From assembly GCA_903871875.1 (NCBI GenBank), contig CAIQIR010000079.1, positions 186,001 to 250,000 on the forward strand: 64,000 bases of DNA. The letters are read 5' to 3'. Of this stretch, positions 50,971 through 64,000 are shown piece by piece. Position numbers and translations under genes: made by a program. Source of the stretch: an uncultured Schlesneria sp. Its GTDB lineage: Bacteria > Planctomycetota > Planctomycetia > Planctomycetales > Planctomycetaceae. Position 1 is the stretch's first letter. Every line of letters starts with the position of its first letter. The notes beneath the pieces were generated by a model, which did no database searches, was not told the DNA's origin, and was given only the letters and a program-made list of their open reading frames with translations.

Positions 50971-51884
50971 GAACGAAACTTCATCGCAAGGAATCGCGGT
51001 TCGGTTCTCAGGCTGGCTTCACGCTGCTGGAGACGATGCTGGCGTTGTCGCTGGCGGCGATCCTCTTGGCCGGCATCTATGCCGCCATGGATCAATCGTG
51101 GCGAATGTCGGCCAGTGGCCGTGAAGAAATGGAACGAGCCCAATTGGCCCGGGCACTGATTCGTCGCATCGAACTGGACATTCGCGCGATCACCTACGTC
51201 CCACCCCCGCCCACGGACGATGCCTCCACATCAACAACAACATCATCGACCAGCACAACTTCAAGTACGTCATCCAGTTCGAGCAGTGGATCGTCCAGTA
51301 GCAGTTCGAGTACTAGCTCGAGTAGCAGCAGTGCGTCGACGGCCAGTTCCACTGACACTACTGATGACACCGTCCCGCCGGTTCCCAATTCCAAAAGCAT
51401 TGGAATTCGTGGGACCAATGTGATGATGGAGATGAGTATCTCTCGTCCGCGGCGCGATCTGCTTCCTGGAACGTCAGCCAATGCCGTGATGGCGGGAACG
51501 AGTGATTTGCGAGACGTGACCTACAGCTTTTTCCGGCCCGGTTCGACCCCCAGTGGGCTGGTCCGCACTGAGGGAGACCGAATGGCCGTTGAGGTCGTCG
51601 AAGCAGGCGGTGGGACGGCACCTCAGATTTCGGGCATGCAGGTTCTAGCCCCCGAAGTCGTGGCACTCAGCTTTCGTTACCTCGATGGACAGACCTGGTT
51701 GGAGATGTGGGACAGCGAGACGAACGGACGCATTCCACGGGCGATCGAAGTTCAGTTTGCGTTTCCTCCGCCGCGACAAAAGCCTTCACTTTTCAACACG
51801 GCTGTCAGTCGTTCCACGGATTCGTTTCGAGCGGTGATTTTGATCCCCGTATCCGATCCGTTCCCGAAGGAGTTTTTGCAATGA
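50967..51884 (+). CDS. Minor pseudopilin, GspJ-like, with a Ser/Thr-rich insert
   Basis: The 305-residue protein has the leader and prepilin motif AG-FTLLETMLALSLAAILLAG, then an alpha/beta head. An insert of about 48 residues (residues 86-133) is nearly all Ser and Thr. The tract sits early in the head, likely as a flexible surface loop that could be glycosylated. GspJ normally has no such insert. It overlaps gspI and gspK by ATGA on each side. Confidence 0.84.
   Translation: MRTKLHRKESRFGSQAGFTLLETMLALSLAAILLAGIYAAMDQSWRMSASGREEMERAQLARALIRRIELDIRAITYVPPPPTDDASTSTTTSSTSTTSSTSSSSSSGSSSSSSSTSSSSSSASTASSTDTTDDTVPPVPNSKSIGIRGTNVMMEMSISRPRRDLLPGTSANAVMAGTSDLRDVTYSFFRPGSTPSGLVRTEGDRMAVEVVEAGGGTAPQISGMQVLAPEVVALSFRYLDGQTWLEMWDSETNGRIPRAIEVQFAFPPPRQKPSLFNTAVSRSTDSFRAVILIPVSDPFPKEFLQ
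51222..51365 (+). repeat. Low-complexity Ser/Thr codon tract inside the GspJ-like gene
   Basis: About 48 codons for Ser, Thr, Ala and Gly, built from AGT/AGC/TCG/TCC and ACA/ACT mixtures. It stays in frame. Confidence 0.85.
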
Positions 51885-53620
51885 AACGCAAACGGGGCTC
51901 AAAGTCGATCGGACGACCCGGTCACGTTGCATCGCGCATGGCACGCGGTCAGGCGGACTTACGTCCCCGCCGTACTGGAAGTGTGCTGCTGCTGGTCGTG
52001 GTCGTCGTCGCGATGTTGACGCTGGCTGCTTTCAATTTCGCCCAGAATATGACGACCGAGTTCGAAGCGGCGTCGATGTACACGATGGATATTCAGGCTC
52101 GCGCCACGGCCGATTCCGGCGTGGAGTTTGTCGCGACCGTGCTTGGCAACAAAGGAAGTGTCACAGCCGAGAACTTGATTCATAACCCGCAACTGTTCAT
52201 GGGCCAGGTCGTGTCCGCCTCGCCCCATCTGCGGGCCAACAGTCGATTCACGATTATTGCACCGGTCGAACACGATGCGACAAATAATGCGATTCGGTAT
52301 GGGCTGATGGACGAATCGGCCAAGTTGAATCTCAACTATCTCCCCAATATGGGGCTGAGTCCTGATGACATCAGTACGATGCTGATGAACATTCCCAACA
52401 TGACGGCCGAGATCATCGACGCGATTATTGATTGGATGGACACCGACGATACCGTGAGTCCATACGGAGCCGAATCGGAAACGTATCAACAGATGCAACC
52501 TCCGTACAAAGCGAAGAATGGTCCGTTCGAAACGATCGATGAATTGCTGCTGGTGAAAGGCATCACGCCGACATTGCTGTATGGAGAAGATGCCAATCGA
52601 AATGGGTTGCTCGATCCAAATGAAAACGACGGCGACGCCAGCCCACCGCTCGATAATGCCGATGGCGTGTTGAATCATGGTTTCATCGCCTATTTCTCGG
52701 TTCACGGGCGTGAATCGAACAGACGGCTGGATGGAAAGCCCAAGATCAATGTCAACAACGGCTATCTGACGGACCTGTACGATCAGTTGATTGAAGCCTT
52801 CGACGAGAATACCGCCAAATTCATCATTGGCTATCGCATCAACGGACCATCGGGAAAGCAAGCGGTTTCGTTGACGAATCCGGTTCCGACACCGTCCGCG
52901 AACACGTCGTTGTCCGGCGCGACAGCCACGGCGCCGCTCTCGATTGTGAATCAGGAAGCTGCGGAAGGACTGACGAGTTTTCTGAGCTATGTGACGAATT
53001 CGGGTGGGGCCGTCACGCGCGGTGGTATCGACTTGTCCAAAGGGGGGCCGACCTCCATCGAATCGCTGTGGCAATTGATCGGCACATCCACCCGCATCAC
53101 GGTGAATGGCGCGGCACAAACCATCACCAGTCCCTGGCCAGCCGAGACCTCATCAGTCACGACGTCGTTACCCGACATGCTCGACAAACTGACCGTCACG
53201 GCCGACACCTATCTCGAAGGGCGGATCAACATCAATCAAGCGCGACGCGAGATCCTGATCGGCTTGCCCACGATGACGGAAGAAATTGTGAATGCCATCA
53301 CCAACGCTCAACATCTCGATGCCAACGGTCAACCGTCACTCGATACCATCAGTCAGCACACCACGACCGCCTGGCTCTTTGCGGAAGGTCTGGTCGATCT
53401 GCCGGGGATGATTAATCTCGACCCCTACATCACGGCGCATGGCGATATTTATCGAGTGCAGGTTTTGGGGTTCTTCGATGGAGGTGGACCCGTGTCGCGA
53501 ATCGAAGCGATGGTCGACAGCACGCAACTTCCTCCACGCGTGATCTTACAGCGGGATCTGAACGAATTGGGACGCGGATATTCACGCAGTCAGTTGTTAC
53601 CGATGTTGCCTAGCCGCTGA
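51881..53620 (+). CDS. Type II secretion tip protein, GspK-like
   Basis: The 579-residue protein caps the pseudopilus. The hydrophobic segment RTGSVLLLVVVVVAMLTLAAFNFA replaces the standard prepilin motif, as in GspK. The head has two SAM-like helical parts, with DESAKLNLNYLPN in the core. A calcium-type loop (DANRNGLLDPNENDGDASP) resembles an EF-hand or dockerin loop. It is the last gene of the ATGA-coupled series. No gspD, gspE, gspF or gspG is in the window. Confidence 0.86.
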   Translation: MKRKRGSKSIGRPGHVASRMARGQADLRPRRTGSVLLLVVVVVAMLTLAAFNFAQNMTTEFEAASMYTMDIQARATADSGVEFVATVLGNKGSVTAENLIHNPQLFMGQVVSASPHLRANSRFTIIAPVEHDATNNAIRYGLMDESAKLNLNYLPNMGLSPDDISTMLMNIPNMTAEIIDAIIDWMDTDDTVSPYGAESETYQQMQPPYKAKNGPFETIDELLLVKGITPTLLYGEDANRNGLLDPNENDGDASPPLDNADGVLNHGFIAYFSVHGRESNRRLDGKPKINVNNGYLTDLYDQLIEAFDENTAKFIIGYRINGPSGKQAVSLTNPVPTPSANTSLSGATATAPLSIVNQEAAEGLTSFLSYVTNSGGAVTRGGIDLSKGGPTSIESLWQLIGTSTRITVNGAAQTITSPWPAETSSVTTSLPDMLDKLTVTADTYLEGRININQARREILIGLPTMTEEIVNAITNAQHLDANGQPSLDTISQHTTTAWLFAEGLVDLPGMINLDPYITAHGDIYRVQVLGFFDGGGPVSRIEAMVDSTQLPPRVILQRDLNELGRGYSRSQLLPMLPSR

Positions 53621-53652
53621 TAAGATAATCATGTGGGCGGGATTTGTGCCTG

Positions 53653-56600
53653 ATGGGGGCTGACGACGTGCGAACCGTATTGTGGATCGGGTTAATCGAA
53701 TTGCTGACGCTGAGTGGGCCAGCCTGGAGTGACGAGTCGCCACAATTCGATCGGGATGTGGCGCCCCTGCTAAAACGGCATTGCGTGAAATGTCACGGTC
53801 CGGCCAAGCAGGAAGCAAAACTCAATCTGGCCGCGGCTGGTGGTTTGATTCGAGGTGGGGAATCAGGGACCTCGCTGGTTCCCCACGACGCCGACGCGAG
53901 TCTGATCTGGCAGAAGATCAATGCGAATGAGATGCCTCCCGAGGCACCGCTATCGGCCGAGGAAAAATCGCTCGTCAAACGATGGATCGTCGAAGGGACG
54001 CCTGGCCTCAAACAGGCGGATACGGACGTCGGTGATCATTGGGCCTTCCGTCCCTTGGAACCTTCGCTGTGGCACAACCCGGCGGCCGAAACGACGGCGG
54101 CGACAGAGGCCGCGGTCTCGCCGGTCGATCGATTTCTATTGTGGAATCTCGCACAGGACGGCCTGTCGTATTTGCCCGAAGTTGATCGCTACACACAAAT
54201 CCGCCGCGTGAGTCTTGATCTGCTCGGGTTGCCTCCGACTCCCGCAGCGATCGATCAGTTTATCAGCGACACGAGCCCGGATGCCTATTCGAGGATGGTC
54301 GATCGGTTTCTGGCATCGCCTCATTTTGGCGAACGGCTGGGCAAACTCTGGTTGGATGCTGCGGGCTATGCGGATTCGAATGGTTACTTCAATGCCGATA
54401 CAGACCGCCCCTTGGCCCATCGTTATCGTGACTATGTGATTCGGTCGCTGAATGCCGACAAACCGTTTGATGAATTTATCCGTGAACAGATCGCGGGTGA
54501 CGAACTGTCCAGTGTCACGGCGCGGACGGGCGAAACCGTCGTGCTGCCCGCAACCTCAATTGACGGTTCCGATGCAGCGGGCCGCGTGATGGAACTTTGG
54601 GAAGCCACTCATTTCCTGCGGAACGGGCAGGACGGTACTGGTGAGAGCGATGGTAATTCCGACGAAGTTCGAGTCGATCGCTACACCGTGATCGAAACCG
54701 CGATGCAGAATATTTCGACTTCTGTGTTGGGCCTGACGATCCAATGTGCGAAATGCCATGACCATAAATTTGAACCGTTGACCCAACGAGATTACTACAG
54801 TTTTCAAGCCGTGCTGATTCCCGCTTTCCCCCCGTCGGAATGGAAGAAGCCCAACGAGCGATTTGTCTACGCCACCCGCCCCGGTGAGATGGAAGCCTGG
54901 CAGTCGGCATTGAACGAGATCGAAACGACCATCACGGGAGTTCAATCGGAAGTCGACGCTTGGGCGAAATCGAATCGACCACATGGCACGATCCTATTTC
55001 AAGATGATTTCAACGGTCCGTCAGAATCGTTGCTCGCTGGATGGAGTCATACAGCACCGGGCGACGATCAGCCCGGCGGTACGGCCGCGGTCCATTTGAA
55101 CTCGCGCGAAGCTCCGGCAGCCATCATTGATGATGGGCGTTTGCAGGTGATTGAGGGTGGACCGGGCGGAGATAAATGGCTGTCGACCAAGAATGCCTTC
55201 GATTGGACCCCCGATATGGTCGGAGCGTCCATTCAGGTCACGTTCGATCTGGTCGCGAATCAGATTGAGCAATCACCACCTGCCGAACGAATCGGTTACT
55301 TTTTCGCTCTGCACGACTTCCACAACGATAGCCCGATTGGCGGTGGTAACATTCTGGTTGACGGACATCCGTCGAGCGGGACCGCCGTTGTTCTCGATTA
55401 TCCCGGCGCCAGTTCGAAGCCGTTGGGGACGCTGGGAAAAACCGGGTATGTTCCCGGTCGCAACTATGGCATTCGGATCACGAATCTGGGCAAAGACAAA
55501 TATCAACTGCAGCAGCTGGTCGATTGGCAAGTCGATGAGCCTGCGATCAAGCTTAAGGCCGAGGATCTGCCACCGGGTGGTTTTGGTTTTGAGTACTGTT
55601 GCGGCCGAAGTTTTGTCGTCGACAACGTCGTGATTGAAACATTCACACCCAGCGAGAGATCCGATCCACTCGCCGCGTTTTCGAAGGAACTGGGGACTCG
55701 ACGTGAGCCGTTGGATGCGGCGCTCAAAACAAAGGACACGCTAACGAATTCACGTCCCGGCAAGATCGCCTGGACCACGGATATTGTCGACCGACCACCG
55801 CCAGTCCATTTGCTGGAACGGGGTAACTATGCCGCCCCCGGTCCGCTCGTCGAACCGGCTGGCTTCGCGGTACTTGGTGGCACTGCTGCGTCGACCCCGG
55901 TTGTCACAGCATCCGGTTCTTCGCCAGAACGAATCGTGAATCTCGCTGGTGCCGAGCTCAAGTCGTCGGGACGTCGCCTGGCGTTTGCGAATTGGCTGAC
56001 CGCACCTGATTCTAAACCGGCGTCATTGATGGCGCGAGTCCAGGTGAATCGTTTCTGGCAACACCATTTCGGAACAGGACTGGTCGCCACGGCTGACAAT
56101 TTCGGACTCAGTGGCCCGGTACCCTCCCACCGCGAACTGCTCGACTGGCTGGCTGCCGAATTCATTCGTTCGGGTTGGAGCTCCAAGCATGTTGTGCGAT
56201 TGATCGTCAATTCCGACGCCTATCGACAGAGTTCACAACGATCCTCGCCGAATGGGGAATCGACCCAGACCCTGGCAGCTCACGTTACGAATACAGACGA
56301 CCGCAATCAGCGCGATCCCGACGCACGAAGATTATCAAGATTTCCCGTTCGTCGGTTGGATGCCGAGGCAATCCGCGACATGCTGCTTTTCTCAAGCGGC
56401 GATTTCGATGATCGGCTCTATGGTCCCTACATCCCGACGACACGAACCGACCAGGGTGAAACCATCGTGGCGGAGGACAACCCGGGTGTTCGTCGGCGTT
56501 CGATCTATTTGCAACAGAAGCGGACACAGGTTCACAGCCTGCTGCAAGTTTTCGACGCTCCCAGTATTGTCTTTAACAGTACCCGACGGGCTCGTTCGAC

Positions 56601-56889
56601 GATGCCGCTGCAGTCACTCAGCTTGATGAATTCCGAATTCGTGGTCGCGAGGTCTCAGCATCTGACGCACTATCTTCAACAGGATTTTGTGAGTGATTCT
56701 GAACGGTTGCAGCAAGCATTCGTAGTCTGCACGGGGAGGCCTCCGACGGAAGCGGATATCCGTGCCGCGATGAAATTCCTGCACGAACAGACGAAGGAAT
56801 ATGGCGAGCAATCGGATGCCCAATTCCGAGCCTGGGCCGACCTTTGTCAAATGCTGCTCATCGAAAACGCTGCGCTCTATGTCGACTGA
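53653..56889 (+). CDS. Planctomycete cytochrome C/DUF1549/DUF1553 protein with inserted lectin-like domain
   Basis: About 1,078 residues, with a signal segment (TVLWIGLIELLTLSGPAWS). It begins with a planctomycete cytochrome domain (CVKCHG, a haem CxxCH). DUF1549 at about 150-430 includes LSLDLLGLPPTP-like sequence and a second haem-like CAKCHDHKFEP. An inserted domain of about 200 residues (from ILFQDDFNGPSESL to VVDNVVIETFTP) looks like a concanavalin/LamG-type glycan-binding fold. DUF1553 follows (NRFWQHHFGTGLVATADNFG). The start is ambiguous: ATG at 53653 or a GTG at 53668. A typical DUF1501 partner gene does not follow. The function is unknown, perhaps surface glycan breakdown. Confidence 0.9.
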   Translation: MGADDVRTVLWIGLIELLTLSGPAWSDESPQFDRDVAPLLKRHCVKCHGPAKQEAKLNLAAAGGLIRGGESGTSLVPHDADASLIWQKINANEMPPEAPLSAEEKSLVKRWIVEGTPGLKQADTDVGDHWAFRPLEPSLWHNPAAETTAATEAAVSPVDRFLLWNLAQDGLSYLPEVDRYTQIRRVSLDLLGLPPTPAAIDQFISDTSPDAYSRMVDRFLASPHFGERLGKLWLDAAGYADSNGYFNADTDRPLAHRYRDYVIRSLNADKPFDEFIREQIAGDELSSVTARTGETVVLPATSIDGSDAAGRVMELWEATHFLRNGQDGTGESDGNSDEVRVDRYTVIETAMQNISTSVLGLTIQCAKCHDHKFEPLTQRDYYSFQAVLIPAFPPSEWKKPNERFVYATRPGEMEAWQSALNEIETTITGVQSEVDAWAKSNRPHGTILFQDDFNGPSESLLAGWSHTAPGDDQPGGTAAVHLNSREAPAAIIDDGRLQVIEGGPGGDKWLSTKNAFDWTPDMVGASIQVTFDLVANQIEQSPPAERIGYFFALHDFHNDSPIGGGNILVDGHPSSGTAVVLDYPGASSKPLGTLGKTGYVPGRNYGIRITNLGKDKYQLQQLVDWQVDEPAIKLKAEDLPPGGFGFEYCCGRSFVVDNVVIETFTPSERSDPLAAFSKELGTRREPLDAALKTKDTLTNSRPGKIAWTTDIVDRPPPVHLLERGNYAAPGPLVEPAGFAVLGGTAASTPVVTASGSSPERIVNLAGAELKSSGRRLAFANWLTAPDSKPASLMARVQVNRFWQHHFGTGLVATADNFGLSGPVPSHRELLDWLAAEFIRSGWSSKHVVRLIVNSDAYRQSSQRSSPNGESTQTLAAHVTNTDDRNQRDPDARRLSRFPVRRLDAEAIRDMLLFSSGDFDDRLYGPYIPTTRTDQGETIVAEDNPGVRRRSIYLQQKRTQVHSLLQVFDAPSIVFNSTRRARSTMPLQSLSLMNSEFVVARSQHLTHYLQQDFVSDSERLQQAFVVCTGRPPTEADIRAAMKFLHEQTKEYGEQSDAQFRAWADLCQMLLIENAALYVD

Positions 56890-57065
56890 TCAGACTCCAT
56901 GACGGCGCTGAATGAAATCACCCTTGGCGGTTCACGGCATTTGCCAGTTGTGGGGGATTGAACTGCCGGCAGCAGGGGGCCGAGTACTAAGCCGATGATC
57001 CCGATAGATACCAGCAGTTCGACCAACGAAAAGCCGTGACGTCGATGGGGCCAGTTTCCTCTCAA
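56877..57065 (-). pseudogene. Truncated prepilin-like (DUF1559-type) fragment
   Basis: The 62-codon frame starts at TTG with AAGGTGG ahead. It encodes RHGFSLVELLVSIGIIGLVLGPLLPAVQ, a close match to the N-terminal prepilin helix of the DUF1559 proteins that planctomycetes make in dozens. The normal continuation (QAREAARRxQC) is replaced by unrelated residues and a stop. It overlaps the 3' end of the previous gene by 13 bases on the opposite strand. It looks like a decayed remnant, although a tiny prepilin peptide is possible. Confidence 0.6.
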
Positions 57066-57384
57066 GCTTCCACCTTGTGTTGTCGGGATCGATCGATCGA
57101 TCGCTTTCCGCGTGGCGTGATCGACGTCTTTGATTCATCGAGGCCCTCGCGAGTTGCGGCCGATTCGAAATTCGATCGTCGAGTCACGGAATTAACAGAG
57201 TCGGCGCTGGTTGTCTTCAACGACTTCCCCCATTCTCCTTTCGGAAACGGGTGACTTGTCGAGGCTGCTGAAGTCAGTACGTACGACGCCCGAAAAGTGA
57301 TCGCGAAAATGATCGTCGTCGTTTTTCTTCGCAAACAACTCGTGTAATCGAAGTTGCCGAACAAATACCTTAATCCCCGATGAC
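57066..57384. other. Intergenic stretch downstream of the sigma-factor gene
   Basis: These 319 bases follow the sigma-factor gene (minus). The short frames crossing it look non-protein, and I find no terminator hairpin. Confidence 0.5.
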
Positions 57385-59520
57385 TCAAGTGGATTGTCGG
57401 CGTTTGATGACGACGTAAACCAACACTCCGCTGAGCAGGACGGCATTGACGATGATCAAAACCGGCAGGAAGGAATTTCGTCTGCCTGTCGCGGCAATTG
57501 GATTCGACGACGTTGTCTGGCCCTGCACCGCCAGCTCCGGTGGATGCAGCACCCGTGTGTCGACTTTCACGACGGGCTTTGAATTCGGATTGATGTTGAC
57601 GGTCAGATGTCGATCTTTGCAATCGGTTCCAGGGGGCGGAGTCAGTTCAAAAAAGTTCTCGCCCATGGGCAACCCTTCCAGGCGATAATGTCCCTGTTCG
57701 TCGGTGATCGTGTGAACGGCTCTCGTTTGGTACGAATTGCCCACCGCGTAAGAGGCGATCCGTGTGGCTTGAACTGTGACGTTGGCGAGCGGACGTCCTG
57801 TCTTGTTGTCGGTGACATCTCCTTCCACGGGAATCGACGGTCTCAGTTTGTGCGTGAACTGTGCGGGATAATAAATTCCCCACTGCGATTCAGAATCCTG
57901 CTCGTGTTTGTCTCCCGCCAATCGAATGACCTCACCGGGGCGCGACAGCGCGTACAAGACGACCGTCTCGACGCCTGGTCCGCGAGCGACCAGAAAGGCC
58001 AGCCGTTCCCGGCCGACTCCTTTCAAGGTGAACCGGCCATCCCGATCGGTCTGGACCCGCGGAACGACAAGGCTGTCGAAGCCACGGAAAGCGCCATAGA
58101 GCAGGCGAAGCTGTTGACCACTCGAGTACCAGTTCGCATCAAGGCCCTTTGTCCGGGCAACCCAGGTATCCAGTGTGTCGTTAACGCCACCATAGACGAT
58201 GAACACTTCAACGGTGGCACCGGCAATGGGGGCGTCCTGCCAATCAATCAACCGACCTTGAATGGGAACATCATCGGCAACCAGCTTCAGTGTGTTCGTG
58301 GGGTGATCCCAAAACTCGTCCGACTGCTGTTTTTGTTCCGCCGAATACTCCGCGTTCACACGACCGGTTGTTTCGAAGTAAACCGAGTCGGTTGCGGTGA
58401 GCCCCGATCCTTCCTTTGTCGCGAGGATCACGGCGTGTTTCCACGGAGGCGAATCGCCTCCCCTGGCCTCGGCGGTCTCGTCGACGAAATCACGACTCTG
58501 GCGTGAGAATTCGAATTTCCCCTGTGCGTCCGCGATGGCCAGAGGTTCGGTGTAATTCGAAAACTTCCGCCACGAATACATCCAGATCTTGGCTCCTGCC
58601 GCGGGGTTGCCTCGTTCATCAATGACCGTGCCGGCATAGTGGAATGTCATGTCCTCCCGCGGCTGTTGAACGTTGGCCTGTGGTGCTGGCGGTAGCGGAG
58701 GTGGAGGTGGTGTGACGCCCCAGGCCTGATAGAGAAATCCCATTGTTCCCAGGCCCAAGACCGCGGCCCCGACCAGACCCGCCGCGGGTTTGAGGCCGGC
58801 AACGAACAGGGAATTCTGGACGCTGTTCGTCAGTTCGGTGACTTGCGGTGAGATCGCCGTGTTCGACAAGGACAGCTGCGTGACGGAAAGCTGGGCCGCT
58901 TTGAGGGCCGGTAGGATCACAGAGTTCGGCACGGCCGCCGAGGCGGCATTTTGTGTGAGCAGCACGGTCAGCGATCCGACCGACAAGGCAACGCCGAGTC
59001 GACCGAGTCGTTCTGCCAGCAGATTACGGGCTCGCATCAGTCGACTGGACAACGTTCCCTCGGGGCACCCCAGTTCCTGGGCGACCTCTTTGTGGCTGCG
59101 GCCCTGCAAATCGCAAAGCACCACGGGAACGCGGTACTTCTCGGGCAAGGCACTGATGGCGTCGTCCAGCAGCGGAGCCAATTCCGTCCATTTTTCGGCC
59201 GAGTGCATTTCGGGTTCGGCCGCGTTGATGTCTTGAATCTCTCGTCTTCGTCGTTGTGCTCGCAGACTGCGGGATTTGAGGGCCGTGCGGTACGCCACTG
59301 CATACAACCAACTGCCAATCCGAGCTCGTGGCATAATCGATGCGGCCTTACGTGAAAGAACCAGAAACGTGGCTTGGAAGGCCTCTTCGGCGTCGTGATG
59401 ATCGCCGAGAATCCGTTTGCAAACACCGAAGACCATCGGTCCGTGAAAACGCATCAACGCTTCAAACGCCGCGTCATCCCGTTGTTGGATGAATTTGTCC
59501 AGCAATTGTCCGGTGGTCAT
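57385..59520 (-). CDS. ECF sigma factor fused to membrane segments and an outer beta-sandwich domain
   Basis: The 711-residue protein begins with a sigma70 ECF module. Region 2 is at about 10-80 (DDAAFEALMRFHGPMVFGVC, RILGDHHDAEEAFQATFL) and region 4 at about 118-168 (LPEKYRVPVVLCDLQG, HKEVAQELGCPEGTLSSRL). A membrane helix at about 244-266 (GLVGAAVLGLGTMGFLY) and a proline-rich linker (TPPPPPLPPAP) follow. Then comes a large region with carboxypeptidase-regulatory-like repeats (YAGTVIDERGNPAAGAKI, DVTDNKTGRPLANVTV, TDEQGHYRLEGLP). The C terminus has a second helix (FLPVLIIVNAVLLSGVLVYVV). AGGAG precedes the ATG. The long outer region could sense an envelope signal and control the sigma part directly. 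Confidence 0.88.
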   Translation of the reverse strand: MTTGQLLDKFIQQRDDAAFEALMRFHGPMVFGVCKRILGDHHDAEEAFQATFLVLSRKAASIMPRARIGSWLYAVAYRTALKSRSLRAQRRRREIQDINAAEPEMHSAEKWTELAPLLDDAISALPEKYRVPVVLCDLQGRSHKEVAQELGCPEGTLSSRLMRARNLLAERLGRLGVALSVGSLTVLLTQNAASAAVPNSVILPALKAAQLSVTQLSLSNTAISPQVTELTNSVQNSLFVAGLKPAAGLVGAAVLGLGTMGFLYQAWGVTPPPPPLPPAPQANVQQPREDMTFHYAGTVIDERGNPAAGAKIWMYSWRKFSNYTEPLAIADAQGKFEFSRQSRDFVDETAEARGGDSPPWKHAVILATKEGSGLTATDSVYFETTGRVNAEYSAEQKQQSDEFWDHPTNTLKLVADDVPIQGRLIDWQDAPIAGATVEVFIVYGGVNDTLDTWVARTKGLDANWYSSGQQLRLLYGAFRGFDSLVVPRVQTDRDGRFTLKGVGRERLAFLVARGPGVETVVLYALSRPGEVIRLAGDKHEQDSESQWGIYYPAQFTHKLRPSIPVEGDVTDNKTGRPLANVTVQATRIASYAVGNSYQTRAVHTITDEQGHYRLEGLPMGENFFELTPPPGTDCKDRHLTVNINPNSKPVVKVDTRVLHPPELAVQGQTTSSNPIAATGRRNSFLPVLIIVNAVLLSGVLVYVVIKRRQST

Positions 59521-59959
59521 TTCTGCTCCTGTTGCGGCACGAAGGATCCCAATTGACGCGGGAAGATCGCGTTCATGAATCATTCGTTTGCTGTTGTTGG
59601 CCGCAAAGTGTGAACTCCTACAGACAATTGCCTGATCGCCGCTGTTTCATTGCAAGAATTTCTCAGAAATTCTCGAATTCGATCTGATCCTTTGAATTCC
59701 GGCGGTGTTTGATCACCGTAACTGCTTTGACCACACCGCCTGGCCAAGCCGAATCCATCGCCTTCCAGGGATTCGCCGCCAGAGCATGACGATGAGAAAT
59801 CAGAGACGTGATCTCTCGACCGCCTGAAATGATTTGCACCTCAAAATTGAATCGCCGCTCGAGGTTCATTAGGATCTGTCACAATTGAGAAGTCATGGGA
59901 GTGGCGATTCTGCCAGCTTCTGATGTCAATTTCCCAGCACTGATGAAAATGGAGTGAGT
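59521..59959. other. Divergent region between sigma-factor and propeller genes
   Basis: About 440 bases hold the promoters of both neighbours and, in the middle, one possible small gene (59663-59869, minus). No operator-like palindrome stands out. Confidence 0.5.
59663..59869 (-). CDS. Possible 68-residue protein of unknown function
   Basis: The frame codes for MNLERRFNFEVQIISGG at the start and a Lys/Arg-rich end (TVIKHRRNSKDQIEFENF). Codon choice looks like that of its neighbours, and residue order (alternating beta-like stretches) seems natural. No ribosome site precedes the ATG, and I recognise no family, so it could be chance. Confidence 0.4.
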   Translation of the reverse strand: MNLERRFNFEVQIISGGREITSLISHRHALAANPWKAMDSAWPGGVVKAVTVIKHRRNSKDQIEFENF

Positions 59960-61141
59960 ATGCATCGACTGAGTGTTCAACCGACAATCGCCTTGCTGGC
60001 CTTGCTGGCTTTTGCCCCGATGGTGTTCGCACAAGATGCTCCCAAGGCGGAAGAGAAGAAAGCCGAAACCAAAGCGGAAGAAAAACCTGCTGATAAACCT
60101 GCCGACAAGCCTGCCGAAAAGCCTGCCGAAAAGCCTGAGGAAAAGCCTGAGGAAAAGCCTGCCGAAAAGCCGGCTGAGAAGCCGGCCGAATTGCCCACGA
60201 AACTGTCGGTCATTCATCTGGATAACCCTTCGGGCGTGACCGTGCATCCCGGCACCGGGCATGTGTTCATTACTTCGCGTCAGGGTGTCTTTCGCTACGT
60301 GCCCGCCACGAAGAAGATTTATCTGGAAGTCGAAGGCTTCCCCACCGACGAGTATGGCAAGGGACCGAAGTACAACATCGGTCCGCTGGGCTGTACGCTG
60401 TGGGGCACCGATCGTCTGATCGTTCCCGATGGCAGCCAGAAAGATGGCGAAGAAGTCGTGCGGATTTATAAGATCGCCGATGAACTTCCCGCCAAGCCAC
60501 GCAAGGCCACAGAAACCGAATTCGTGCTGGGCCCCATTAAGGGGAACCCGGAAGCTAACTACAAGGGCGAAGGCAATTACTACGCGGCCGTCGTCTGGAA
60601 CGACACGATCTACGTGACCGCCAATGGCGATGATACCAAGGGATGGATCGTCACTTCGAAGATCACCGATGGCAAGCCGGGCGAATTGACCGGAACGATT
60701 GCGACCAAGGAAGCGACCCAGGTTGACGCCCCCGTCGGCATCACGACAACACCTGACAGCTCCAGCCTGGTCGTCGGTCAAATGGGTGAAGTTTCGGTTC
60801 CTGGCGATTCGCTGCTGTCGTTCTACGACAAAGAAGGCAAGCTGACCAAGAACTATAAGACCACATTGAATGACATCAGTGGTCTGGCCTACAGCCCCAA
60901 AACGGGCAAGCTGTATGCAACCGACTTCGCCTGGGCCGAAGAGATCAAGGGCAACGGGGGATTGTTCGAACTGGTCATCGAGGGCGACGAAGTGAAGCCT
61001 AAGAAAATTCTCGGCCTCGATCGTCCCACCGCTTTGGGCTTCGACAAAGAAGGAGCCTTGTACGTCACGGTCTTCGGGACCGGCAAAGACACTGGCGACA
61101 AGCCCAACGGTGGCTTGATCCGCCTGGAGCCCGGTCTGTAA
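59960..61141 (+). CDS. Secreted propeller-like protein with a PEKP-repeat linker
   Basis: The 393-residue protein starts with a signal peptide (TIALLALLAFAPMVFAQ, cut before DAPK). A charged linker at about residues 43-77 repeats the four-residue unit P-A-E-K. The rest is a beta-propeller (GVTVHPGTGHVFITSRQGVFR, GLAYSPKTGKLYATDFAW, ALGFDKEGALYVTVFGTG), reminiscent of SMP-30/NHL proteins. GGAG precedes the ATG; a GTG six bases earlier is in frame. The linker could anchor or space the propeller in the envelope. It ends at a strong terminator. Confidence 0.85.
   Translation: MHRLSVQPTIALLALLAFAPMVFAQDAPKAEEKKAETKAEEKPADKPADKPAEKPAEKPEEKPEEKPAEKPAEKPAELPTKLSVIHLDNPSGVTVHPGTGHVFITSRQGVFRYVPATKKIYLEVEGFPTDEYGKGPKYNIGPLGCTLWGTDRLIVPDGSQKDGEEVVRIYKIADELPAKPRKATETEFVLGPIKGNPEANYKGEGNYYAAVVWNDTIYVTANGDDTKGWIVTSKITDGKPGELTGTIATKEATQVDAPVGITTTPDSSSLVVGQMGEVSVPGDSLLSFYDKEGKLTKNYKTTLNDISGLAYSPKTGKLYATDFAWAEEIKGNGGLFELVIEGDEVKPKKILGLDRPTALGFDKEGALYVTVFGTGKDTGDKPNGGLIRLEPGL
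60086..60190 (+). repeat. Tandem 12-base repeat coding for P-A-E-K units
   Basis: 35 codons of repeating Pro, Ala/Glu, Asp/Glu, Lys units (CCTGCCGAAAAG type), nearly identical from copy to copy. Copy number may vary between strains. Confidence 0.85.
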
Positions 61142-61244: not shown

Positions 61245-62477
61245 CTACGGCGATGCCGCATCTCCCAGCAATTTACGAGCGATTTCCATCTGATTTTCAA
61301 AGATCTGTTCTGAACCGAAATAAGTGATGGGATTGTTCAGCATCGGCATCAAGCCCTCTTGCCCGGCCAGATAAAGCGCACGTTCGAGCGGATAACGGTC
61401 CGATGATCGGGACCTTAATCGATCGACAATGCTGCCGATACGAGGCCGGTATCGGGTGGTCACCAGATCCCATTCGGCTCGTCCAACACGTCGTTCCTGC
61501 ATGCGTTTCAACGCCGTTCGGCAGTTCGTGAATTCGCGATAAACAGTGCTGGCGGGCGGTGGTTGTTGCCACCACGTCATCACGAGAAAAATCGCCGCCG
61601 CCGATAACACAAGGCCCCACAGTCGCTTTGGGCCACCGACCATTGCGGCCACGGAACGCCATCTGTTCGCCATCCAACCGGGACGTTTGTGATCTCCGAC
61701 CGACCACGATTTCTCTGGAAAAACAAATCGATTCTTCGATGTGGAACTGTCGGGTTGTTCGGCGAGACCATTCCCCTGCTCGACAGTAGAATCGAAGTCG
61801 TTCGACTCGGGGCCTGGCCCGTCTGTTGCCGGCGACCCGCTCAAGGGAGCCGCGGTAGCGAAACCATCGGCGCTCGACTTGTCGGCATCGGGCACCGATG
61901 ACGAGTAATGTGATTTGGTCCAGGGCAATGCTCGCCAGTCATTGCGTCGTTGTTGATTGAAGCCAGAGCGAGGCGAATCACGATTCTCTCGCGGTCTGGC
62001 GGCGGCGAGCTCTGGGATTTCGTCGGGGCTCTGCCAAAGCCCATTGACGCCCTGCCGCACCACATCGGCCGAACGCAATTCGCTTGATTGCCGCATCCGG
62101 CACAGTGTGGCCAAATCCACGGGGCCACGAACGACACCGGCTGCCATCAACCACCAGTCGGCGACCAACTCGATTTCTGCCGTTTCCGAATCGGATGGCC
62201 GAGATTCCTCATCGGGTGACCCGATTTCCTCGTCCACGCAGGCAAATTCGCCAGTCGCATCGGACTTCGCTGATGACGCGTTTGGCGTTCGATCTGTTCG
62301 AACCAATCCGACACCCGATCGGTCCTCGGCGACGCCTTCCAGAATCAGTCGATTCCGCACCTGGCGGTACAGATCCTCGTCGGCATTGACGAGACGGAAC
62401 AGATGGGCGTTCAGCAGCTGGCCTCGCTGGCGAAGCAAATCGATTGCCGCTTCGAACGCTTGATCCAACGTCGTCAT
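61245..62477 (-). CDS. Membrane protein with a GYF-like domain
   Basis: The 410-residue protein starts MTTLDQAFEAAIDLLRQRG. A GYF_2-like domain lies at about residues 105-160 (WWLMAAGVVRGPVDLATLCRM, ending QGVNGLWQSPDEIPEL). A disordered, polar part follows (about 165-270). One helix at about 290-310 (LWGLVLSAAAIFLVMTWW) and a helical outer tail (FTNCRTALKRMQERRVGRAEW) complete it. GGAAATGG lies ahead of the ATG at 62477; the frame is open 25 codons further. GYF domains bind proline-rich stretches. The function is unknown. Confidence 0.75.
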   Translation of the reverse strand: MTTLDQAFEAAIDLLRQRGQLLNAHLFRLVNADEDLYRQVRNRLILEGVAEDRSGVGLVRTDRTPNASSAKSDATGEFACVDEEIGSPDEESRPSDSETAEIELVADWWLMAAGVVRGPVDLATLCRMRQSSELRSADVVRQGVNGLWQSPDEIPELAAARPRENRDSPRSGFNQQRRNDWRALPWTKSHYSSSVPDADKSSADGFATAAPLSGSPATDGPGPESNDFDSTVEQGNGLAEQPDSSTSKNRFVFPEKSWSVGDHKRPGWMANRWRSVAAMVGGPKRLWGLVLSAAAIFLVMTWWQQPPPASTVYREFTNCRTALKRMQERRVGRAEWDLVTTRYRPRIGSIVDRLRSRSSDRYPLERALYLAGQEGLMPMLNNPITYFGSEQIFENQMEIARKLLGDAASP

Positions 62478-62735
62478 GTCACCATTTCCGGCAAAACTGA
62501 GGCGGGATTTCCAATGAGCCAGGTCAGTAACGTTAAGAAACGATAACGGCAAAAATGATCAACAACAAATTTTGCTCGCGTGACGCGTTTCTGCATTACC
62601 TCGTTTGATTGTACGACATTGCGTCACACGCACGTCCAGCAATTTCGGGGACAGCGGCGGCCAAAAGTGACATTCCGTCTGGCGCAGCCGGATCTGGTTC
62701 CCCAGCTTTCCCGAAATGAATCTGGCTTGGTCACT

Positions 62736-64000
62736 TTACGAAACGCGGCGGCAAAGCAGATCGTCGACGACTTCGCCGGCCGGTACGACTCGAAATGGCC
62801 GCTGGAACGGATCATAAATATGGGACGCGTGATCGACGCCTAACGCGGTGTAGATCGTCGAAATGATATCTCCGGGGATTAGCGGGTGGCTGGCGGGAAA
62901 CGCACCAGTGCTGTCGCTGCTGCCGTAAATCAGACCTGGCTGAAATCCGCCGCCCACCAGCATGACACTGTAACAGAAATTCCAATGGTCCCGGCCCGCG
63001 CCGTTGGCATTGATGCGGGGCGTTCGGCCGAAGTCGCCCAGAACGGCGACGATCGTTCGTTCCAGCATTCCGCGTTCGGCCAAATCGGCGATCAAGCTGG
63101 AACAGGCCGAATCGAACTGGGGCAGCAGCGTGCTTTTCAACGTCTTGAAGTTGTTGGAATGTGTGTCCCAGGTCGCGTTCGCGTCGGGAGCCCACGAAAT
63201 CGTCACGATGCGGGTTCCGGCTTCCAGCAGCCGCCGCGCCAGCAACGTACTTTGACCATAAATATTGCGACCGTAGCTTTCCCGAGTCGCGTCCGATTCT
63301 TCCGTCAGCCGGAAGGCTCGCTGCGTCTGTTCGGACGTCAGCAGGTCGAGCGCCCGTGATTGCATCCGGGTCATCTCGATACTGGCCGAAGGACTGGAAT
63401 CGAAGGCCACTCCGGCGTTCTCGAACAGTCGTCGTCGGGCCGCCAGCCGATCCGACGTGACTTCATTTTGCAGCGTCAATTCGGGCACGCGGAAATCGGG
63501 TGCGTTCGGATCCTTCAGCACAAACAATGGATCGAACGAATGGCCCAGAATCCCACCGAAGAAGCCGGGTTGCGGCGGACCACCCGCTCCTTCTTTCGTG
63601 ATGTAAGGCAGGCAGACGTGAGGGACAACATTCGCCGCGGTCGGGCGCAGTCGAGCCATAATCGAGCCGAGGGCCGGATGATCGGTCGGCTTGGTGCCAC
63701 CCCCCTGCTCGCCTCGGTCATGGCCGGTCAGCGAGGCATAGACGGCGGCGGCGTGCGAGTTATTAACGGTATGGTTCATCGACCGCACGACGGTCGCTCG
63801 ATGAACTTGCCGAGCCAGTCGCGGCAGGTGCTCGCACATCTGATAGTCGGGCAGCGACGTGGCGATCGGTTGGAATTCACCCCGGATGCCATCCGGCGCG
63901 TTCGGCTTCATATCCCACATGTCGAGATGGCTGGCCCCGCCGTTCAGAAACAGCAGAATGCAGTTATCGGCCAGCGGTTGCGAGGTTCCCTTGGAACCGG
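62736..64000 (-). CDS. DUF1501 protein, C-terminal part (cut by window edge)
   Basis: The frame continues upstream to the window edge, so the real start is outside. The visible 421 residues begin with GSKGTSQPLADNCILLFLNG and run through the DUF1501 core: HLDMWDMKPNAP near the start, and ERTIVAVLGDFGRTPRINA with GRDHWNFCYSVMLVGGG near the end. It is similar in role to the DUF1501 protein at 41280 but clearly a separate paralogue. The twin-arginine signal is presumably beyond the window. A DUF1549/DUF1553 partner might lie upstream, outside the window. Confidence 0.92.
   Translation of the reverse strand, partial: GSKGTSQPLADNCILLFLNGGASHLDMWDMKPNAPDGIRGEFQPIATSLPDYQMCEHLPRLARQVHRATVVRSMNHTVNNSHAAAVYASLTGHDRGEQGGGTKPTDHPALGSIMARLRPTAANVVPHVCLPYITKEGAGGPPQPGFFGGILGHSFDPLFVLKDPNAPDFRVPELTLQNEVTSDRLAARRRLFENAGVAFDSSPSASIEMTRMQSRALDLLTSEQTQRAFRLTEESDATRESYGRNIYGQSTLLARRLLEAGTRIVTISWAPDANATWDTHSNNFKTLKSTLLPQFDSACSSLIADLAERGMLERTIVAVLGDFGRTPRINANGAGRDHWNFCYSVMLVGGGFQPGLIYGSSDSTGAFPASHPLIPGDIISTIYTALGVDHASHIYDPFQRPFRVVPAGEVVDDLLCRRVS

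Follow-up and report, generated by a model that had tools for sequence, protein, structure and literature searches.

A predicted membrane-tethered ECF-type sigma factor with a closing C-terminal helix in an uncultured Schlesneria sp.

The gene and its sigma regions

The gene lies in a window of 64,000 nucleotides (positions 186,001 to 250,000 of contig CAIQIR010000079.1) and encodes a 711-aa protein in which sigma regions 2 and 4 are followed in turn by a linker, a hydrophobic helix, a stretch rich in proline, beta domains including a CarboxypepD_reg (CRP) module, and a C-terminal helix (Table 1). The ATG at 59520 is preceded, 5 bases upstream, by AGGAG (59530-59526), whereas inspection by eye finds no AGGAG upstream of the ATG at 59583. 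Residue numbers are those of the 732-aa frame (start 59583); for the 711-aa protein (start 59520), 21 is to be subtracted.

Table 1. Features of the sigma factor gene (positions in the window; residues in the 732-aa frame)
Feature	Position	Strand	Basis
Whole gene, 711 aa	57385..59520	(-)	M22 of the 732-aa frame 57385-59583; AGGAG 5 bp before ATG
Sigma-70 region 2, residues 45-112	59248..59451	(-)	Pfam Sigma70_r2 PF04542, E 1.5e-8
Cys55	59419..59421	(-)	Conserved in 85/87 alignment rows
Sigma-70 region 4, residues 139-187	59023..59169	(-)	Pfam Sigma70_r4_2 PF08281, E 4.4e-15
Cys157	59113..59115	(-)	Conserved in 85/87 alignment rows
Conserved linker, residues 196-258	58810..58998	(-)	Holds NAASAAVP; modelled helices 202-214, 220-234, start of 246-270
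Putative first membrane helix, about residues 259-285	58729..58809	(-)	Peak 1.71; family peak in 97/97; charge bias
Proline-rich stretch PPPPPLPPAP, residues 292-301	58681..58710	(-)	Sequence and family Pro fraction
Predicted outer beta-domain region, residues 313-675	57559..58647	(-)	AlphaFold2 model; homologous region behind M56 peptidase domains
CarboxypepD_reg / transthyretin-like domain, residues 586-642	57658..57828	(-)	PF13620, E 5.2e-18
Closing C-terminal hydrophobic helix, residues 708-726	57406..57462	(-)	Peak 2.84; shared tail profile A1
Basic tail KRRQST	57388..57405	(-)	Sequence; expected inside the cell

Both sigma matches exceed the Pfam cut-off, TIGR02937 (sigma70-ECF) scores 85.9 bits against a cut-off of 42.9, and no region 3 family is found among the Pfam matches (E up to 0.1); judged by its sequence, the protein is an ECF sigma factor, with regions 2 and 4 and without region 3. 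The sigma part is followed by an extension of ~535 residues. Pfam detects no anti-sigma domain in the protein, although sequence profiles can miss one, and yields 0 anti-sigma family matches among the 5 neighbouring ORFs given to it (E up to 0.1). It appears plausible that the fused design replaces a separate anti-sigma factor. The preliminary description of this locus had claimed that one chain combines sigma regions 2 and 4 with hydrophobic helices and a domain of outer type, which the Pfam matches and hydrophobic peaks bear out.

Autoregulation through an ECF-type promoter was considered and rejected: the motif GAAC-N15-18-CGT, an ECF consensus loosened for the scan, is found in 0 of 9 paralogues including the window gene (up to 400 bases before the near-start point), with 0.8 expected from shuffles. 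No sigma-70 promoter-like site is present in 56880-60000 (shuffles 0.9). Eight terminator-like sites lie in the same interval (4.1 in shuffles, sd 2.8), but their significance is not evident.

Membrane helices and outer domains

Hydrophobic peaks were calculated on the Kyte-Doolittle scale over 19 residues. The first helix of the window protein, judged alone, appears weak and is convincing only through its relatives, because 21.6% of 20,000 shuffles of residues 241-732 reach at least its peak. A scan of the whole extension places a peak of at least 1.6 at 53-78 residues past the sigma part in 86 of 86 named relatives, and such a peak occurs, at 52-77 residues, in 97 of 97 relatives (the 86 named and 11 from the window's genus) when the stretch 40-110 residues past the sigma part is measured. 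In both counts the relatives had been ranked by whole-sequence similarity, a choice that favours this trait. The charges around the helix in the 97 relatives (K/R 224 before and 122 after; D/E 18 before and 119 after) favour an N-inside orientation. The 40 residues past the helix have a family Pro fraction of 0.134, compared with 0.071 beyond.

The linker between the sigma part and the first helix (about 65 residues) is well conserved (G197 in 84/87, P219 in 69/87 and L251 in 81/87 alignment rows), and its NAASAAVP motif would face the cytoplasm in the favoured topology. On direct reading, the hydrophobic segment that ends in this motif (about 196-216) resembles the h- and c-region of a signal peptide, and a peak of 1.6 is reached there in 15 of the 97 relatives, so that it might itself be the membrane helix or an internal signal peptide-like element, with the outer domain left in the cytoplasm or the chain cleaved by signal peptidase after AxA. 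This reading is improbable: the median peak of the segment is 1.39 compared with 2.09 for the first helix, whose peak exceeds that of the segment in 96 of 97 relatives; AxA is patchy beyond the close paralogues (A214 41/87, A216 63/87); AlphaFold2 models short helices here (block pLDDT 74-91); and the charges around the first helix point to N-inside. The preliminary description had also called for a search for conserved cleavage sites between residues 170 and 245, and the analysis established none.

The remainder of the extension includes about 400 residues of beta domains, with a Pfam match to DUF6795 at residues 320-366 (E 1.9e-9). Reading of the AlphaFold2 model by eye distinguishes three beta-rich stretches (about 313-404, 431-546 and 570-675), which makes the earlier term "repeats" a fair one, and model residues 584-680 match the transthyretin-like (TTR) domain of carboxypeptidase D (5aq0_B, Z 11.2, 81 aligned, 2.5 A). 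The model is no test of the membrane helices because its confidence is below 50 at residues 266-294 and 676-732. Its sigma part can be superposed on RsiW-bound SigW (156 of 157 residues aligned, rmsd 8.4), whereas polymerase-bound ECF sigma chains, when most of their length is aligned to the model, give rmsd above 20. This packing would be a weak hint at an anti-sigma-like hold and may be an AlphaFold default; it is absent from the model of the paralogue L005, where the SigW alignment is confined to a single domain (93 residues) and sigma matches along the whole length give rmsd values of about 12 or higher.

The closing helix is a genuine feature, though one of restricted range. Its peak is equalled or exceeded in 0.06% of 20,000 shuffles of residues 241-732, and RR is present in 90% or more of 11 tails. 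The helix is found in 9 fusions in the window's genome and 3 in a congener (G007), whereas none of the 82 named relatives with complete sequences has a matching tail and none of 17 relatives from other genera has the helix. The preliminary description had staked its claim on orthologues retaining the C-terminal part, and this holds for these 12 fusions but not for the distant relatives. A single origin of the helix (12 rows) is neither rejected nor demonstrated by the tree (p-AU 0.13; 2 label changes on the sigma tree). The tail alone matches TIGR01167 (LPXTG) with a score of 16.6 against a cut-off of 15.9 (E 0.0091); this NCBIfam match was judged generic and an LPXTG surface-protein reading was rejected, given that the protein contains no LPXTG motif, and two paralogue tails lack the TIGR01167 match. 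A general sorting tail (PEP-CTERM or LPXTG-like) was likewise rejected: in the window's own genome (150 of 276 candidates scored), a profile of the 11 tails matched the 9 sigma fusions and one stub of 37 aa (C170:16873-16968, E 9.7e-7), besides one chance-level match (E 0.88).

Relatives and module sharing with M56 proteases

The window protein probably belongs to a large, ECF57-like planctomycete family, the relatives being abundant in Isosphaeraceae and Gemmataceae. The design described as unusual in the preliminary description is no one-off: the genome encodes 11 other long relatives, 8 of which possess both anchors. The closest, L003, is 57% identical to the window protein over residues 20-345 and retains the sigma part, both helices and CRP. 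Non-functional copies are common in expanded families, and for one of many paralogues it is conceivable that the sigma part is defunct and the chain an envelope protein. Given the intact frame, the sigma regions scoring above cut-off and the architecture preserved in L003, this is highly improbable.

In 85 scanned extensions, a sample ordered by similarity to a query that itself carries CRP, Pfam identifies WD40 in 4 and CarboxypepD_reg in 29 (the window protein and L003 included); no WD40 is found in the window protein. For one paralogue with both anchors, a moderate-confidence model (one model, mean pLDDT 65.5) suggests a LolA/LolB/LprG-like fold for the outer domain (Foldseek 3buu, E 1e-5; 3bk5, Z 12.8, 201 aligned, 4.4 A); such folds are typical of exported proteins. 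This putative assignment comes from the fold, because the sequence searches gave no link: a profile of 7 LolA-type outer domains retrieved a single match among PDB sequences (E 0.29, unrelated by name), and the outer parts of L004 to L010, L026 and L028 have no Pfam match above cut-off. RseB is not among the 50 matches listed for the model.

In 28 of the 29 non-sigma carriers scanned, the CRP region lies behind a Peptidase_M56 domain, that is, on the C-terminal side of planctomycete BlaR1-type proteases, which differ from the window protein in that the other part is a protease domain rather than a sigma factor. Pfam finds no Peptidase_M56 domain in the window protein, the outer module alone being shared. 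The modules of the window protein and L003 are nested in a clade (support 98/99) whose members are mostly carried by M56 proteins. The module has changed carrier several times. A single origin of the sigma-CRP fusions is rejected (31 rows as a single clade, p-AU 0.00026 on the sigma tree, 7 label changes), where the CRP label was assigned by BLAST, with the module of the window protein as query (25 of 86 named proteins labelled), a few unlabelled rows may carry CRP given that Pfam finds it in 29 of 85 extensions, and the tree had already been seen before the test. The M56 proteins of the same genome were rejected as the source of the module: in this genome, the search for the module across the class retrieved the window gene and L003 and no others (4 of 8 candidates scored), and the window extension has 0 BLAST matches to the 6 own M56 proteins at E 1. 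BLAST of the paralogue extensions against these 6 gave one good match, between L012 and L215 (E 2.4e-11), which have in common a module that weakly matches secretin-N-terminal (STN). WD40 modules, like CRP, occur both behind sigma tethers and behind M56 proteases.

The outer location of the CRP region is suggested by its homolog following the M56 domain, at the place where BlaR1 has its extracellular sensor; by POTRA, OmpH-like or secretin matches at the equivalent position in 3 of the 6 own M56 proteins, these families belonging to the periplasm and outer membrane; and by the LolA/LolB/LprG-like fold in the paralogue. The WD40 extensions of the same family (4/85) fit this location less well, WD40 domains elsewhere being often cytoplasmic.

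Proposed mechanism and comparison with known systems

The domain order, the family-wide first hydrophobic helix, the charge bias, the closing helix with its limited range and the sharing of the module with M56 proteins were obtained directly; from these we infer topology, inhibition, signal and release. With moderate confidence, we interpret the protein as a membrane-tethered, ECF57-like sigma factor that is inhibited at rest and freed by regulated proteolysis. The sigma regions would be located in the cytoplasm, joined by the conserved helical linker and the first helix (in to out) to outer transthyretin/prealbumin-like beta modules, and the closing helix (out to in) would return the basic C-terminus to the inside. 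In the resting state, sigma would be kept away from RNA polymerase by the tether, with a possible contribution from linker helices packed on regions 2 and 4. When the outer domain meets a ligand or envelope stress, a membrane-adjacent stretch would become exposed to a site-1 protease, and a site-2 (M50-type) protease would then cut in or near the first helix and free sigma. The genome has 6 frames for M50 homologs, which says little because M50 is present in 14 of 14 control genomes. ECF sigma factors of Tuwongella immobilis are reported from Triton/SDS fractions (PMC8567305).

The same tether could instead act by conformational change through the helices without cleavage, sigma being active at the membrane or the whole chain engaging polymerase, as proposed for the extensions of ECF41 and ECF42, which are said to work via conformation or protein contact (PMC8999054). 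The closing helix, by placing the C-terminus inside, should hinder C-terminus-seeking Prc-type proteases, and the two conserved cysteines have been taken to indicate a conformational switch in ECF57 (PMC8999054). Promoter access, however, would be limited for a membrane-fixed sigma, and IutY, a characterised membrane-fused ECF, is activated by proteolysis (PMC8999054), which leaves the cleavage-free variant rather unlikely.

ECF57 (e.g., WP_015250107.1 from Singulisphaera acidiphila) resembles the family of the window protein in its C-terminal extension, with WD40 in some members (WD40-like repeats are prevalent in ECF57 extensions), and in a conserved cysteine in each of regions 2 and 4 (PMC8999054), which correspond to Cys55 and Cys157; the review's account of ECF57 covers WD40 and protein contact and does not mention a membrane helix, CRP, LolA-like domains or a closing helix (PMC8999054). 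ECF52 SCO4117 of Streptomyces coelicolor likewise combines sigma, a membrane region, a proline-rich stretch and an outer binding domain, there carbohydrate-binding, in one chain, but it also contains a zinc-finger (anti-sigma) domain between sigma and the membrane helix, and its group is described as confined to Actinobacteria (PMC5826349); no zinc-finger family is found among the Pfam matches of the window protein up to E 0.1. Since ECF48, ECF52 and ECF53 are said to have one to two membrane helices (a variable number in ECF52), the presence of a second helix is in itself no novelty in fused sigma factors, whereas the passages on these groups in the two papers describe no helix that follows the outer domain at the extreme C-terminus (PMC8999054, PMC5826349). 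Proteolytic freeing of sigma is proposed for ECF52 and demonstrated for IutY (PMC8999054, PMC5826349). IutY (ECF243) of Pseudomonas putida is a single chain of sigma and a membrane-bound inhibitory part, freed by Prc and RseP; it differs in belonging to an iron-siderophore surface-signalling system, with a fused anti-sigma factor as its extension (PMC8999054).

The LolA-fold paralogues resemble sigmaE-RseA-RseB in the succession of sigma, membrane helix and LolA-like outer domain, RseB having a LolA-like fold; the difference is one polypeptide instead of three, with no RseA-like domain recognised. More tentatively, planctomycetes may possess a stock of envelope sensor modules plugged onto tethered sigma factors or BlaR1-type M56 proteases; in this genus, the sigma-type sensor would be held by helices at both ends, without a free outer terminus, so that opening it would take an internal cut or a change of shape, and the LolA-fold version would be the sigmaE-RseA-RseB cascade in one chain. 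The second anchor and the sharing of sensors with BlaR1-like proteases look new, whereas the broad kind is already known.

The study of regulation by ECF extensions has only just begun (PMC8103513, PMC8999054), and Gemmataceae are described as having many young ECF paralogues (PMC8567305). The family offers a natural swap experiment, with one sigma and tether combined with many outer domains, and a single chain would do work that is usually split over two or three proteins. The doubly anchored form would separate two release routes, because a Prc-type, C-terminus-seeking protease should find no outer C-terminus. If sensors are common to sigma and M56 carriers, the ligand of one would suggest that of the other.

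Domain layout and the first membrane helix

The window protein belongs to a broad, already known kind of membrane-type sigma factor and is well formed. Its sigma regions are recognized by Pfam, and the protein exceeds the cut-off of the ECF superfamily model TIGR02937 (85.9 against 42.9 bits). The frame stays open up to an upstream ATG at 59583, which gives 732 aa; as judged by eye, a ribosome-binding-like AGGAG precedes the ATG at 59520 only, with none before that at 59583. The preliminary description had placed sigma regions and two membrane helices in one chain. The regions stand, as does the closing helix, whose hydrophobic peak is far above chance (reached in 0.06% of shuffled sequences), but the peak of the first helix, taken alone, is not above chance (reached by 21.6% of shuffles). 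Among the five neighboring ORFs scanned, Pfam finds no anti-sigma family (E up to 0.1). In the divergently encoded NHL-like protein, the N-terminal part is made up of KPAEKP-like repeats.

Features of the window protein (residues of the 732-aa frame) and of the neighboring ORFs (window positions)
Feature	Position	Strand	Remarks
Fused sigma factor gene	57385-59520	-	711 aa
Sigma region 2	residues 45-112		Pfam
Sigma region 4	residues 139-187		Pfam
First hydrophobic helix	about residues 259-285		
Beta-rich stretch	between the two hydrophobic helices		roughly 400 residues
DUF6795	residues 320-366		Pfam
CarboxypepD_reg	residues 586-642		Pfam
Closing helix	residues 708-726		followed by KRRQST
T2SS K-like protein	51707-53620		Pfam
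PSCyt1/PSCyt2/PSD1 protein	53644-56889		Pfam
NHL-like protein	59954-61141	+	Pfam
Protein with weak GYF_2 match	61245-62552		Pfam
DUF1501 protein	62736-63920		Pfam

The 7.61 Mb source genome (178 contigs) contains 60 matches to sigma region 2, and the window protein, used as query, has 22 matches there, with 12 long sigma proteins, whose frames, that of the window included, span 567-898 aa, and nine shorter ones. On the contig of the window, four region 2 matches lie within about 20 kb (245-266 kb; 245248, 253146, 258755 and 265531); two of these are closing-helix fusions, namely the window gene and L007, the window itself ending at 250 kb.

A contig scan with a 12-protein alignment yielded at least 591 stretches, 464 of them confirmed; the best 80 of the 464 (79 loci) hold 86 sigma proteins, from Singulisphaera, Gemmata, Zavarzinella, Limnoglobus, Aquisphaera, Fimbriiglobus and many metagenome assemblies. 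Because whole sequences were ranked, this sample is biased towards window-like proteins. In all 86, hydrophobicity peaks at 1.6 or more between 53 and 78 residues past region 4, with a weaker additional peak ahead of this one in some. Together with eleven proteins of the genus, the first helix is present in 97 of 97, its peak beginning 52-77 residues after the sigma part (median 67; stretch 40-110 measured). Within 15 residues of this helix, K/R number 224 before versus 122 after and D/E 18 versus 119; K/R are more numerous before it in 64 proteins, after it in nine, and equal in 24. Cys55 and Cys157 are each conserved in 85 of 87 alignment rows, a likeness to ECF57, for which PMC8999054 gives two conserved cysteines as a trait. 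The extensions match CarboxypepD_reg in 29 of 85 cases and WD40 in four of 85 (Pfam). The minimal sigma proteins L138:3166-4161 and L154:3797-4855 have almost no outer domain.

Distribution of the closing helix

The closing helix is local in distribution. The preliminary description had named orthologues devoid of the C-terminal part as something that would refute its design; the helix is indeed absent from all 17 fusions of other genera examined (some overlap the 86) but present in nine fusions of the source genome and three of another Schlesneria genome, G007. A loose rule flagged four of the 86 proteins (from the best 80 of 464): L138 and L154 stop at most 40 residues past the first helix, and L167 and L188 have marginal peaks (1.61 and 1.65) without a basic tail. 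None of the 82 complete proteins from the same sample has the tail pattern (aromatic-hydrophobic, Asn, two basic residues). The sigma half is matched at E 1e-30 or better in eight of 15 genomes of the genus, the source genome included. All 14 loci of the other genomes were inspected: the tail is found in L113, L121 and L125, all from G007, and is absent from ten complete others, while L123 runs off its contig. Within the source genome, both anchors are present in eight long proteins besides the window's (L003 to L010), and the tail is absent from L011, L012 and L013. The extension of L011 (712-2460, minus strand), which has no closing helix, matches DUF1559 (SBP_bac_10; E 6e-22).

The tail consensus is WFxxANxxxLLxVxxxxxxRR, with the Asn invariant in 11 tails. 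A profile search of the source genome (150 of 276 candidates scored) retrieved nine sigma fusions, a 37-aa stub and one chance-level match; since the matches are practically confined to sigma fusions, a general sorting signal is rejected at that sensitivity. The stub, an open frame (L110, G000:C170:16873-16968; E 9.7e-7), is perhaps a remnant of a lost fusion. The fused sigma factors ECF48, ECF52 and ECF53 are reported to have one to two membrane helices, so that a second helix alone is already known.

Outer modules shared with M56 proteases

The last 431 residues of the window protein, with the carboxypeptidase-regulatory (CRP), transthyretin-like module, have matches in 70 of 397 genomes drawn from the class (E 1e-8; up to four candidates per genome scored). 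The carriers are of two kinds: in a set of 70 distinct modules, 36 are sigma-borne and 34 are not. The BlaR1-type Peptidase_M56 domain is found in 28 of 29 non-sigma carriers (N-terminal 480 residues scanned; 31 of 34 rows); the scan left out L048 (contig edge), L090_2192 (overlapping the end of a sigma frame) and L079_2 (cut by its stretch). In genome G050, about 60 bases are common to the sigma and CRP frames of L090 (352-2250 and 2192-4402), which points to either a split gene or a frameshift in sequencing.

In the module tree, the window module pairs (100/95) with that of L003, its closest paralogue, and this pair is nested in a set of 25 rows with 98/99 support. Of these rows, 13 have HExxH upstream, four are sigma-borne and eight are others; seven of the eight are giant frames with HExxH at residue 276-421. 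Several of the giant single frames L229-L235 (1,958-4,741 aa, HExxH near residue 276-421; families f1, f11 and f13) are matched by the module more than once in BLAST. The sigma label changes nine times on the best module tree, where branches with good support force at least four changes. On the sigma tree, built from 119 rows (118 of them different), seven changes of the CRP label are required, and placing all 31 CRP-labelled rows in a single clade is rejected (p-AU 0.00026). These repeated changes on both trees indicate that the module and the sigma half have recombined more than once; both trees are unrooted and hence silent on the direction of transfer. Within the source genome, the M56 protein L215 and the sigma fusion L012 have matching extensions (E 2.4e-11). 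All six M56 proteins of this genome (L214-L219) match Peptidase_M56, and their remaining parts are highly diverse: secretin in L214, HEAT in L215, four POTRA repeats in L216 (E 3e-42), OmpH-like in L217 and WD40 in L218, with no match except peptidase families in L219.

Structure models, proposed release and an alternative outer domain

The AlphaFold2 model of the window protein (46 rows; mean pLDDT 76.6, pTM 0.56) is mostly well scored in the sigma part and linker, with residues 266-294 and 676-732 below 50. Residues 584-680 match carboxypeptidase D in its transthyretin-like domain (Z 11.2, 81 residues aligned, 2.5 A). As a weak hint, the modelled sigma part resembles inhibitor-bound ECF chains: it aligns over its whole length with SigW bound to RsiW (rmsd 8.4), and with CnrH bound to CnrY (6.4) and RpoE bound to NepR (8.7), versus more than 20 for polymerase-bound ECF chains whose alignment covers most of the chain and about 2 for 6dv9 and 6jbq, where one domain is aligned. 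This compact arrangement is not repeated in the model of the paralogue L005.

The likeliest reading is that the sigma part would be sequestered by membrane tethering and set free by regulated proteolysis. Such release is shown for IutY (PMC8999054), whereas for the window protein it is inferred, and tethering with proteolytic release is proposed for ECF52 (PMC8999054; PMC5826349). For ECF factors in a wider sense, membrane association has some outside support: PMC8567305 reports five ECF factors of Tuwongella immobilis from fractions obtained with Triton or SDS, three of the five in no more than one experiment. M50 peptidases match six frames of the source genome, but such peptidases are universal in control genomes. 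Three features of the window protein are new: its second anchor at the C-terminus, its outer modules of transthyretin-like type, and the occurrence of these modules in M56 proteases as well. The open literature searched yielded no link of sigma factors to CRP or to M56/BlaR1 in planctomycetes, nor RseB/LolA with a fused ECF factor; within that literature, then, neither the helix that closes the C-terminus nor the sharing with M56 proteins is reported.

The paralogues L005 to L010 have a common outer domain, other than that of the window protein, with no Pfam match above cut-off; six other aligned regions, L026 among them, are 24-45% identical to L005. The AlphaFold2 model of L005 (mean pLDDT 65.5, pTM 0.52), built from nine sequences, gives a predicted LolA-superfamily fold for residues about 275-645, with Foldseek hits to 3buu (E 1e-5) and 9tp6 (E 1.5e-5), a match to 3bk5 (Z 12.8, 201 of 235 residues, 4.4 A) and further matches to 4z48 (DUF1329, Z 12.8), LolA3 (Z 11.8) and LolB (Z 11.3); sequence profiles of the domain found no link to the LolA superfamily. 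A LolA-like domain occurs in RseB, the sensor of envelope stress in the sigmaE pathway, and the parallel with these fusions would be an attractive one. On the sigma tree, ten of the twelve fusions with a closing helix fall into one clade (100/98), all but the window gene and L003; these two pair (100/99) apart from it, their placing unresolved, and a grouping of all twelve is not rejected (p-AU 0.13). If the pair and the clade are sisters, the outer domain would have been swapped between two retained anchors.
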